Virus record (IMG/VR): IMGVR_UViG_3300035070_001237
Coordinates: 1-49,782 of that record
Strand: one strand, 5' to 3'
DNA length: 49,782 bases
Source: a virus
The position numbers and the translations under genes were made by a program. Below the pieces are notes generated by a model, which was not told the origin of the DNA, ran no database searches, and saw only the letters and a program-made list of their open reading frames with translations. How positions within the stretch are numbered: position 1 is the stretch's first letter; the number at the start of each line of letters is the position of its first letter. Below are positions 42,287 through 47,805 of the stretch, in pieces.

Positions 42287-42691
42287 GTCTCGTTTCCGTC
42301 ACATTGATTTCGTTTTGTGCTGCGAAAATCCGGTTCCCCGGTGATGGGTATATGGGAAATCAAACGGCGAAAGGGGGTCTACCCCCCCCTTTCGCCGTAG
42401 CTTTTGGCAACCTTAGCTCTACAAGTAGAGCTAAGCCGTTGTATTTATTACTAAATAGTGTCCTATCTAGGGAGAAATCTTCTTCTTCTAGTGGTGAGTT
42501 TTGAATTGTTGGTCCCTTCTCTTCAATTCAATACGGTTCTTAAGTCTCAGGACAGTCATAACAAATACTTACCTCTCTATTCGTCCTTGCCCTTCTGAAA
42601 GAAGGGCTGGGTTGGAAGTTAGTGGCCGGTTGGTTTCGACAATCCGGCAAAAACTTCAATCAATCCAACAACTTATGGAAGGTACAACCTC
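42287..42691. promoter_or_regulatory. 405-base divergent gene-free region with multiple hairpins
   Basis: No plausible gene is present. Inverted repeats: ACGGCGAAAGGGGG (42364-42377) with CCCCCTTTCGCCGT (42385-42398), a very strong stem; CTTAGCTCTAC (42412-42422) with GTAGAGCTAAG (42425-42435); TTGAATTG (42501-42508) with CAATTCAA (42524-42531); and the RNA element at 42589-42648. Adjacent to TerS and between divergent arms, it could hold early and late promoters, a packaging or origin site, or attenuators. No clear -10/-35 pair was found on either strand. Confidence 0.6.
42589..42648 (+). ncRNA. Structured RNA element, copy 1 (two hairpins around GGAAGTTA)
   Basis: Hairpin 1: GCCCTTCT (42589-42596), loop GAA, AGAAGGGC (42600-42607). 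Core GGGTTGGAAGTTAGTGGCC (42609-42627). Hairpin 2: GCCGGTTG (42625-42632) with CAA-T-CCGGC (42640-42648, one bulge). GAAGTT (42615-42620) can further pair with AACTTC at 42652-42657. It sits 44 bases before the first early gene. Copy 2 at 47748-47805 keeps the core with different but still paired stems. Confidence 0.7.
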
Positions 42692-43138
42692 ATGGATTTT
42701 ATCAAAGAAAACGACATCAAGGTGTCAGGTCGTAAGAACGCTTTCGAACTGATGTTCCAAGTCGTGAACCAATGCCAAAAGACAACAAAGGCCTCGGCTA
42801 ACATAGGTGACTATGCCATCATGGGCATCGGATCGTTACCAGCCGTAAACGCCTTCATCATCGAAAGGGACCAACTGAAAGACTACGGTCCTATGGTTGG
42901 CAACGCCATCGCCAAGTCGTTGAAACATCGTATCGCCATCGGCAAAAACGCTGAGATTGCACAACAAGCTCTCGACCTGTTGCTCAAATTCTCGGCCCAT
43001 CGTCAAGGCATCGTTCCAACGGCTCCTGTTGAGACGGCTCCTGAAGCTCCCAAAGCTCCTGCCGTGACAGCAGCCAGCCTCAAGAAGCTGAAGAAAGACG
43101 ACCTCGTGTTGGCTCTCCTGTCGCATCTCAACATCTAA
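42692..43138 (+). CDS. First right-arm early protein, 148 residues, unknown function
   Basis: A helical N-terminal domain (KVSGRKNAFELMFQVVNQCQ), a conserved-looking GDYAIMGIGSLPAVNAFI stretch and a helix around EIAQQALDLLLKFSAHRQG. Pro/Ala-rich linker (VETAPEAPKAPAVTAASL) leads to a short Lys-rich tail (KKLKKDDLVLALLSHLNI), as in small proteins with a separate C-terminal binding helix. GGAAGG precedes the start. No family is recognised. Its lead position suggests an early host-control role. Confidence 0.7.
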   Translation: MDFIKENDIKVSGRKNAFELMFQVVNQCQKTTKASANIGDYAIMGIGSLPAVNAFIIERDQLKDYGPMVGNAIAKSLKHRIAIGKNAEIAQQALDLLLKFSAHRQGIVPTAPVETAPEAPKAPAVTAASLKKLKKDDLVLALLSHLNI

Positions 43139-43154
43139 TCCCATCGACGTTCTG

Positions 43155-43225
43155 ACCACGGCTCAAGTCGTGGTTGGAACCTTGTCGGTAAGGGCTGTTA
43201 CGGCAGCTCTTTCCGATGCGGTTCC
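43155..43225 (+). ncRNA. Paired hairpins before the second early gene, possible divergent copy of the RNA element
   Basis: Hairpin 1: ACCACG (43155-43160) with CGTGGT (43169-43174). Nested hairpin 2: GGAACC (43176-43181) with GGTTCC (43220-43225), TCGG (43185-43188) with CCGA (43213-43216), and AAGGGCTG (43190-43197) with CAGCTCTT (43204-43211). The linking GGTTGGAAC resembles the GGTTGGAAG core of copy 1. Could be an RNase III-type processing site or a regulatory leader. Confidence 0.55.
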
Positions 43226-43255
43226 CGTATCACAATCGTTCATAGGAGTTTTTAC

Positions 43256-43666
43256 ATGAACTTTATCCTAACTATCGAAGGTCAAATTTACGACCTCCTT
43301 GGTGACTTGCACGAGCTGCACACCAACGACAAGTATTATGACCGTACCTACTGGGCAGCTCGTGGCATGTGTAGAGTTGCTTGCCAGTTCACGAACGACG
43401 CTGATGAAGCTGATATGTTCGATAGGATACAGCAAGCGGTTCTCACAGAGTTAAACGTCAGATACCATGCCGAGGCTGAAGACGAACGTGAGGAAGTCGC
43501 CGCCGAGGTAACAGCTCATGTCGAGAGCGTCGTCGACGACAAGACGTCGGCCACGTTGGAAGAGTTGTTTGGTGCAGTGAGCAAGCCCTTGTCGGAGAAC
43601 AAGGGTAGCTTTGAAATACCCGGCGAGCCGATGGAAACAACACGGTCAGACGAATTATTCTTCTAA
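43256..43666 (+). CDS. Acidic early protein, 136 residues, unknown function
   Basis: The N-terminal half is compact with aromatic residues (NFILTIEGQIYDLLGDLHEL, KYYDRTYWAARGMCRVACQF). The second half is a very acidic helix (HAEAEDEREEVAAEVTAHV) ending SDELFF. Strong negative charge is common in phage DNA-mimic or host-takeover proteins, but no family is recognised. TAGGAG ribosome site before the start. Confidence 0.65.
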   Translation: MNFILTIEGQIYDLLGDLHELHTNDKYYDRTYWAARGMCRVACQFTNDADEADMFDRIQQAVLTELNVRYHAEAEDEREEVAAEVTAHVESVVDDKTSATLEELFGAVSKPLSENKGSFEIPGEPMETTRSDELFF

Positions 43667-43685
43667 GTCGAAACCTACAAGAGAG

Positions 43686-43726
43686 CAGCGTCCTCGTGAC
43701 GCTGTTCCGTTGTGCGTTTTGCGTAC
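43686..43726 (+). ncRNA. Two hairpins in leader of third early gene
   Basis: CAGCGTC (43686-43692) with GACGCTG (43698-43704), then GTGCG (43712-43716) with CGTAC (43722-43726, one wobble). Followed by the repeated leader ACCCCAACACGAAGGGAAA (43731-43749) that contains the ribosome site. Confidence 0.45.
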
Positions 43727-46481: not shown

Positions 46482-46687
46482 AATACGCCATCAGGGATAA
46501 GACCCGTGGATACGGAGTGTTCGACGAACGCTTCGCAACACGGACAAAGGCCGAGGCAAGTCTTTGGAGGTACGCCCATCTAGGCGGCGAATTGGTGGTC
46601 TTTGAGGCACACCATGACAAGGCATCGAACGATGCCATCAACGCAATCATCAGCAACCCCGCTGGCAAAGTAGGAGAAGACACATGA
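46478..46687 (+). CDS. Small early protein, 69 residues
   Basis: Coupled by ATGA to the DUF2958 gene. Starts MKYAIRDKTRGYGVFDERFA, aromatic and charged, then a helix with Ala/Asn. Resembles small phage proteins that wrap nucleic acid or modify a host enzyme; no family recognised. Confidence 0.55.
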   Translation: MKYAIRDKTRGYGVFDERFATRTKAEASLWRYAHLGGELVVFEAHHDKASNDAINAIISNPAGKVGEDT

Positions 46688-46971
46688 GCAAACGCAAACC
46701 TTTCGATCCGTTTCACAAAGTCTGCTGCAAGTACGGCGCTCCGATGGGACGTCGTGATGCCAAGCACATACTATCCGTGTGGGATGGGTGTCTAATCGCA
46801 CGTCACTGCGGCGGTACAGATTGCTACGACAAAGGGGGTGCGTATTGGGGCGCTCCCCTCGACATCTGGGCTGTCTGGAACCGTGGCAAGGGGCCAGAGA
46901 CAGTCACGTATGTACGTGCCGACAACGCCAAACAAGCCAAGGACTTTGCAGTAGGAAGGACATCAACATGA
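46684..46971 (+). CDS. Early protein with Cys/His cluster, 95 residues
   Basis: Coupled by ATGA. Contains Cys14, Cys15, Cys36, Cys43 and Cys47 with His42 (KVCCKYGAP, DGCLIARHCGGTDCY), compatible with a zinc-binding finger. The C-terminus is an Ala/Lys-rich helix. Unknown function. Confidence 0.6.
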   Translation: MSKRKPFDPFHKVCCKYGAPMGRRDAKHILSVWDGCLIARHCGGTDCYDKGGAYWGAPLDIWAVWNRGKGPETVTYVRADNAKQAKDFAVGRTST

Positions 46972-47177
46972 AAAGCCAACCAACACCCGAACAGCTTATC
47001 GAAATCGAAAAGCTCGCCTTTAAGTACCGCCACTGGGCGTCCAAATCCAACCGTGAAACAGCGTACCAAGACGCCGAGCGCATGGGTATGGATATTATCC
47101 GAGAGTATTGCCGCAAGCGGGGCATCGCTACGCTTGGCGAACACATGGTCGCCGCAAGTCTTACGATCAACCCATGA
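46968..47177 (+). CDS. Small helical early protein, 69 residues
   Basis: ATGA overlap with the upstream stop; GGAAGGA upstream. Helical with TPEQLIEIEKLAFKYRHWAS and DIIREYCRKRGIATLGEH. No family recognised. Confidence 0.55.
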   Translation: MKSQPTPEQLIEIEKLAFKYRHWASKSNRETAYQDAERMGMDIIREYCRKRGIATLGEHMVAASLTINP

Positions 47178-47401
47178 GATTGTGGCGTCGGACCAAGCGG
47201 TCACGTCGTCGTCACCACCGCAGACGTATCGTCGAGAGAGCAACACGTATGCTTTATCTCTGCGGTCACGAGCGCGATAGCAAATGGATCGTCCGTCTCG
47301 CAGACAACATGGCACTGCACGACATACACGGGCCATACCCACAACCCCCTCGCAACAAACGCCAGTGGTTTAGACTGGCACAATCAGGAGACTACACATG
47401 A
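47174..47401 (+). CDS. Arg-rich early protein, 75 residues
   Basis: ATGA overlap upstream and downstream. Strongly basic front (MRLWRRTKRSRRRHHRRRIV) followed by a compact domain (YLCGHERDSKWIVRLADNMA). The positive charge suggests RNA or DNA binding. No family recognised. Confidence 0.55.
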   Translation: MRLWRRTKRSRRRHHRRRIVERATRMLYLCGHERDSKWIVRLADNMALHDIHGPYPQPPRNKRQWFRLAQSGDYT

Positions 47402-47715
47402 CTAAGCAACAAGCCATCATGAGCACAGACGATGAAGTCTTGGCACTTGCTGAGAAGATCAGACGCCAGCGAAAATTAGACAACGAGTATCTTAAAGCGT
47501 TCAATATACTGCGCGAGCTAAAAAATGACACCTCTCCCAGCGTTGGCTCAGTCAGTAGGAAAAAGCTAAACGACCACAACTATATCTGGGTTAAGTTCTA
47601 CACAGAGAGTAACACCGGATATTTTGGCGACACAGTAGTCGAACTACCAGCTCAGTGTGGTGATGATCTTATCAACTACCTGATGGAATACACTGACGCG
47701 CTGACGCCAGACTAA
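47398..47715 (+). CDS. Early protein, 105 residues
   Basis: Starts with a helical region (EVLALAEKIRRQRKLDNEYL) and continues with a beta domain (HNYIWVKFYTESNTGYFGDT). Ends YTDALTPD. No family recognised. Precedes the second copy of the structured RNA element. Confidence 0.6.
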   Translation: MTKQQAIMSTDDEVLALAEKIRRQRKLDNEYLKAFNILRELKNDTSPSVGSVSRKKLNDHNYIWVKFYTESNTGYFGDTVVELPAQCGDDLINYLMEYTDALTPD

Positions 47716-47747
47716 CAACCCCCAACCACCTCAGACCTTCATGCTTA

Positions 47748-47805
47748 GTTCCTCCGAAGGAGGAACAGGGTGGGAAGTTATTGGCCCAGCTATTCCGGCT
47801 GGGTC
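47748..47805 (+). ncRNA. Structured RNA element, copy 2 before the CobS-like gene
   Basis: Hairpin 1: GTTCCTCC (47748-47755), loop GAA, GGAGGAAC (47759-47766). Core GGGTGGGAAGTTATTGGCC (47768-47786). Hairpin 2: GGCCCAGC (47783-47790) with GCTGGGTC (47798-47805, one wobble). Compared with copy 1 the linker is nearly identical and both stems differ in sequence but stay paired. Confidence 0.72.

Follow-up and report, generated by a model that had tools for sequence, protein, structure and literature searches.

A conserved two-hairpin element before the first early gene and cobS of CRP-810-type marine phages, a candidate early antitermination signal

The window analysed here is the whole 49,782-nucleotide (nt) stretch of the virus record IMGVR_UViG_3300035070_001237 from IMG/VR. 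On its plus strand it carries two copies of an element composed of a hairpin, a linker and a second hairpin, one copy lying before the first early gene and the other before a gene for a cobS-like AAA ATPase (47835..49601, +). The first early gene (gene 1; 42692..43138, +) encodes a fast-evolving protein of 148 amino acids (aa) and holds the position of lambda N. Between the two elements, within the early operon, stands T1 (44598..44628, +), a strong intrinsic terminator with an 11-pair stem and a U7 tract. In element 1, hairpin I (GCCCTTCT-GAA-AGAAGGGC; 42589..42607, +) has eight base pairs and a GAA loop, and is followed by a purine-rich linker (42608..42624, +) matching that of element 2 and by hairpin II (42625..42648, +). 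Element 2 has the same arrangement: hairpin I (GTTCCTCC-GAA-GGAGGAAC; 47748..47766, +), again of eight pairs with a GAA loop, linker (47767..47780, +) and hairpin II (47781..47807, +). Upstream of element 1 are a conserved anchor, AGTCATAACAA, on the minus strand (42554..42564, -) and, 2 nt 5' of hairpin I, a putative upstream box, ATTCGTCC (42579..42586, +), which is conserved among relatives, mostly as GTCGTCC.

The original prediction, made from the sequence alone, had described two such copies, and both sequence comparison and folding confirm them. The linkers are equal at 17 of 20 bases over 42608-42627 and 47767-47786, exactly as had been stated. Compared with dinucleotide shuffles, the copies fold with z values of -5.3 (copy 1) and -4.9 (copy 2), and 0 of 200 shuffles were as stable. 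Both stems had been called fully paired. This holds for hairpin I, in which all pairs are intact in both copies while only 4 of the 8 positions of the 5' arm are identical between them, and for hairpin II of copy 2, which is perfect; hairpin II of copy 1 contains a small internal defect. An exact 13-base core occurs at these two sites alone in the window, and a covariance model finds matches at 42582 and 47741 alone when matches with E values up to 5 are considered. A weaker third relative had been suggested at 43155-43225. That stretch is strongly structured (z -5.5), yet the covariance model does not match it, and it is not counted as a copy. The whole gap between genes 1 and 2 (window 43149-43226) is strongly structured, and different hairpins are found at the equivalent place in locus L011.

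Its genes place the window in the marine temperate phage family of CRP-810 type: it has SU10-type portal and capsid genes, a terminase sharing 59% identity with the one of Roseobacter phage CRP-810, and a gene order that agrees with this phage. CRP-810 is the founder of a family with 251 uncultured related genomes (PMC11288001). A term search of that paper found promoters, terminators and hairpins unmentioned. About 150 loci of relatives were gathered with CobS and terminase profiles, and the element turned up in over 30 distinct relatives, again 5' of the first early gene and 5' of cobS, where the original prediction had placed it in the window. In the relatives, element 1 lies within the divergent region that precedes the first early gene; in every lineage examined the element is found 5' of early units. 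From 25 copies a covariance model was built, which recovers additional copies on the early strand, its best opposite-strand match having an E value of 0.16. It also finds the element in L213 and L214, two genome-collection contigs outside the model set that were found with a nine-sequence terminase profile; a two-sequence terminase profile gave no matches over the genome-collection contigs. Some relatives possess three copies, for example L050 (4528-5360) and L027 (4087-4220 and 7157-7230), the latter with two tandem copies in the leader and one before cobS.

A consensus DNA pattern of the element was matched by 51 stretches over viral contigs. Outside the CRP-810 family, some matches lie beside tRNA genes or are driven by composition, and those in L185 and L206 are antisense to a coding frame for proline-rich peptides (e.g. 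IPPNPPLGG) and were rejected as coincidence. L169, L175, L183, L187-L189, L192 and L208 were grouped with these two, in which alone the frames were read. A hairpin-plus-G-run pattern antisense to proline-rich linker frames is thus a trap for consensus scans. As the outside matches are mostly coincidental, the element looks confined to the CRP-810 family within the limits of the consensus pattern.

Hairpin I keeps its pairing while its sequence changes, so that almost every lineage has a different set of paired bases. Besides GCCCTTCT/AGAAGGGC and GTTCCTCC/GGAGGAAC, its arms include ACCCCCCT/AGGGGGGT, ATACCCC/GGGGTAT, CTTTTCC/GGAAAAG, CAAAACTC/GAGTTTTG and CTTAACTC/GAGTTAAG. Its loop reads GAA or AAA, and AGA or UAAA in some lineages; the closing pair covaries. 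Among 32 distinct sequences, whose selection by pairing inflates the figures, 92.6% of cells are paired against 64.2% in shuffles, two-sided changes occur at all eight pairs, and the covariation score is 0.806 against 0.257 in shuffles (reached in 0 of 500) and 0.16-0.32 in slid registers. Since this set had been chosen by pairing, sites were also taken by the flanking anchor, blind to pairing, and the hairpin was present in 20 of 30 such segments where 0.24 would be expected. Inspected by eye, the 10 segments without it are 7 anchor matches in terminase coding sequence and 3 distant CRP-810-like lineages. Selection for pairing, claimed originally from two copies, is therefore strongly supported by hairpin I: the search for homologues brought further copies, and their pairing is kept.

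The linker behaves differently from the stems. Copies in one genome have a common linker and differing stems, as in L050, where GAGGGATT is present in all three copies, whereas the linker changes between genomes. Between first and last copies, linker identity is 0.675 within the same genome and 0.509 when copies are reassigned (0 of 5000 permutations); the difference for stem arms is less clear (0.571 against 0.472, 51 of 5000). Gene conversion should homogenise the stems as well, so that recognition of the linker by a genome-specific partner would be the simpler reading.

Hairpin II is less conserved than hairpin I. It is stable in most copies of element 1, and when both kinds of copy are taken together z falls below -1.5 in 19 of 37; in the window's own group it displays some covariation, one pair changing from U-A to C-G, with 97% of cells paired. 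A single long second stem formed by the linker and downstream sequence was considered as an alternative fold and rejected: it occurs in some single sequences and is not conserved.

Known RNA families were searched with the 4227 models of Rfam release 15, at gathering thresholds and, for both copies, in additional low-threshold scans. At gathering thresholds there were no matches in the window and 14 relatives, and the low-threshold scans of both copies gave chance-level matches to unrelated types and nothing else, so that no ordinary known element is identified. The likeness of GGAAGT to glutamine riboswitches, raised loosely in the original prediction, came to nothing, as cmscan did not match that family's covariance model at any threshold used. 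A conserved RNA-like element 5' of two unrelated genes, with a linker that pairs with downstream sequence in some foldings of individual relatives, could in principle be a metabolite riboswitch or attenuator. This is very improbable: besides the lack of an Rfam match, the linker, which is the sole candidate for a ligand pocket, varies between lineages, neither a terminator nor a masked ribosome-binding site lies directly 3' of the element, and in L096, the nearest relative of copy 1, the copy 1 linker is kept and its downstream pairing partner lost. Genome context points instead to control of transcription elongation.

The early operon has a fixed order of element, gene 1, terminator and cobS. 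Strong intrinsic terminators on the plus strand between element 1 and cobS are found in 16 of 18 relatives; 18 were observed in that interval where shuffles would give 0.07, and the other strand has none. In 11 relatives the terminator directly follows gene 1, its T-run lying 33-98 nt beyond the stop codon. The window and its closest relatives have additional genes ahead of T1, which there stands 1.4-2.0 kb away from element 1. In 14 of 22 genomes the start codon of the next gene comes 20-52 nt after the T-run. A separate promoter with its leader would not fit into so short a gap unless it overlapped the terminator; for the early promoter to express the genes that follow, readthrough would therefore be needed. 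The motif GTGTC (TTTTTTTGTGTC; window 44622-44634) follows the T1 U-tract in several otherwise different lineages. CRP-810 itself has a terminator directly after gp01, one of two within its early operon. In its locus (L013:1600-1725), a sigma-70 type promoter (TTGACT-N17-TTATAC) stands between the second terminator (1602) and element 2, about 40 nt before the latter. In the CRP-810 lineage, element 2 would therefore start its own transcription unit.

On the opposite strand, the anchor at 42554..42564 (-) probably provides the -35 region for divergent, leftward transcription from a sigma-70-like promoter, which is clearer in relatives (TTGATA-N17-TATACT). The anchor AATCATATCAA of relatives reads TTGATATGATT on the other strand (window 42535-42564, -), with TATACT or TATAAC 16-17 nt further. 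On that strand it looks like a conserved sigma-70 promoter that would serve the structural operon leftward.

The gene 1 proteins of relatives are 103-161 aa long, mostly basic and divergent. In fold models, one group is confidently helical (pLDDT 83.5) with no structural relatives, and the other group is modelled poorly. A basic, fast-evolving protein, an element in the leaders of both gene 1 and cobS, and a genome-specific linker common to the copies, as expected for a co-evolving trans-acting protein, would all suit the main rival explanation, namely that the element is an autoregulatory operator: an RNA-binding protein of the phage, perhaps encoded by gene 1, would bind it and so govern how the gene 1 and cobS messages are translated or how stable they are. 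It is nevertheless rated unlikely, for hairpin II ends about 30-45 nt 5' of the start codons and leaves the ribosome-binding site uncovered, and the conserved terminator after gene 1 is left unexplained. With hairpins clear of ribosome-binding sites and no Rfam match, the riboswitch, translational switch and processing site offered as guesses in the original prediction gain no support, and its interpretation as a whole is partly supported.

Two stable stem-loops close to message starts, with pairing preserved while the stem sequence varies freely, might also act as a 5' stabiliser or an RNase processing site, protecting early messages or being cut to free them. Such a role needs no conserved loop, fixed purine linker or within-genome linker match, all of which are seen, and is regarded as improbable.

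A DNA function was considered as well. The element has a 3-nt loop, the distance from loop to G run in both window copies fits the N4 spacing, and a near-absence of G-U pairs would suit DNA, so that the element might be a hairpin promoter of the N4 virion-polymerase type, with transcription beginning at the G run, about 11 nt beyond the centre of the loop. This appears extremely improbable. No virion-type or T7-type polymerase was recognised, and the window's 4114-aa protein gave no match, although very divergent enzymes could escape the search, the template-strand loop for rightward transcription would be TTC or TTT rather than GNA, and the CRP-810 lineage has its sigma-70 type promoter upstream of element 2. 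T7-like RNA polymerase (PF00940) was not found in eight records, namely the window record and seven relatives, in a search in which the T7 control matched, and this is consistent with dependence on the host polymerase.

The favoured reading is that the element is a transcript-borne early antitermination signal analogous to lambda nut or HK022 put; it stands at about an even balance. RNA polymerase would start upstream of element 1 and make an RNA containing hairpin I, linker and hairpin II. Either alone, as put does, or with a phage protein, as nut does with N, this RNA would convert the elongating host polymerase, the gene 1 product being a plausible partner. The converted polymerase would pass T1 and transcribe the remainder of the early operon, and the second copy before cobS, and a third in some relatives, would renew or add the same modification. 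We infer that the hairpins act as RNA and modify RNA polymerase, with T1 as target and gene 1 as partner.

Several observations weigh against antitermination. For the gene 1 proteins, neither Pfam nor fold comparison gave a match, and by eye they have no obvious arginine-rich N-terminal motif. L029 and L037 carry the element without a detected T1, and in the window lineage gene 1 and T1 are not adjacent but 1.5 kb apart. In CRP-810, no intrinsic terminator is present from element 2 to the operon end at about 10.3 kb, so that this copy would have to act on a target that is Rho-dependent or lies further away. The window lineage has no clear promoter 5' of element 2. Lastly, the stems hold few G-U pairs, so that wobble asymmetry does not distinguish an RNA from a DNA hairpin; a comparison of G-U with C-A pairs as proof of RNA gave about two clear G-U pairs, the C-A cases being register artefacts, and was not used.

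A bolder form of the antitermination reading, held tentatively and somewhat doubtful, is that the element represents a cis-acting RNA family absent from Rfam which renders the host polymerase resistant to termination by another mechanism than those of nut/N and put, through a hairpin of free sequence with an RAA loop and a lineage-specific purine linker read by the fast-evolving protein of the first early gene, in a globally distributed marine phage family. If antitermination is correct, it would provide a first handle on gene timing in a widespread family of marine temperate phages and a new RNA-based control of bacterial RNA polymerase. Co-divergence of linker and gene 1 would then amount to a natural experiment in RNA-protein specificity, and the idea is directly testable in the cultured member CRP-810.

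Two further genes were noted on the minus strand of the window. One (6402-18746, -) encodes a 4114-aa protein that matched nothing in Pfam, PHROG or PDB sequences and may be an internal virion protein that is injected. The other (34950-37589, -) adjoins the structural genes and encodes an 879-aa phage protein with RCC1 repeats.

The element shares features with four known systems. Its sole likeness to glutamine riboswitches (glnA and Downstream-peptide RNAs) is the string GGAAGT. With the N4 virion RNA polymerase promoters it has in common a triloop hairpin near early genes and a G run at a matching distance; it differs in that no such polymerase was found, the purine loop is on the wrong strand, and one lineage has a sigma-70 type promoter. 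The order and spacing of element, small first gene and terminator are like those of lambda nutL, N and tL1, the terminator after N, with nutL about 80 nt upstream of N, and the A-rich hairpin loop is also nut-like. The boxB hairpin of lambda is 15 nt long and has a GNRA-like pentaloop, whereas the loop here has 3 nt (GAA, AAA or AGA) or is UAAA, with a covarying closing pair. No boxA, which in lambda is bound by NusB/S10, is confirmed here, the conserved GTCGTCC upstream of element 1 bearing a weak likeness to it. Neither an N protein nor, by eye, a clear arginine-rich motif is recognisable, and the element's covariance model found no match in the lambda stretch searched.

The number of copies also has parallels, as phages of the mEp021 group possess two or three nut sites per genome, as here (PMC11893012). 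HK022 put is present in two copies per genome at the starts of early operons, each of about 70 nt with two stem-loops and with terminators downstream (PMC9378689). The element resembles it in having two hairpins within about 60 nt and two copies, a promoter being seen in the CRP-810 lineage alone. In put, one base alone connects the stems and a triplex forms in stem I, while here a lineage-variable linker of 14-18 nt separates the hairpins. To suppress termination, put acts through the beta-prime zinc-binding domain and needs no phage protein. The covariance model gave no match on a 16-kb HK022 region, a stretch in which putL and putR were not located. The phage antitermination RNAs in this cited literature, nut and put, come from E. 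coli phages; in sequence and predicted structure the marine element is neither of them, and in layout it resembles both.

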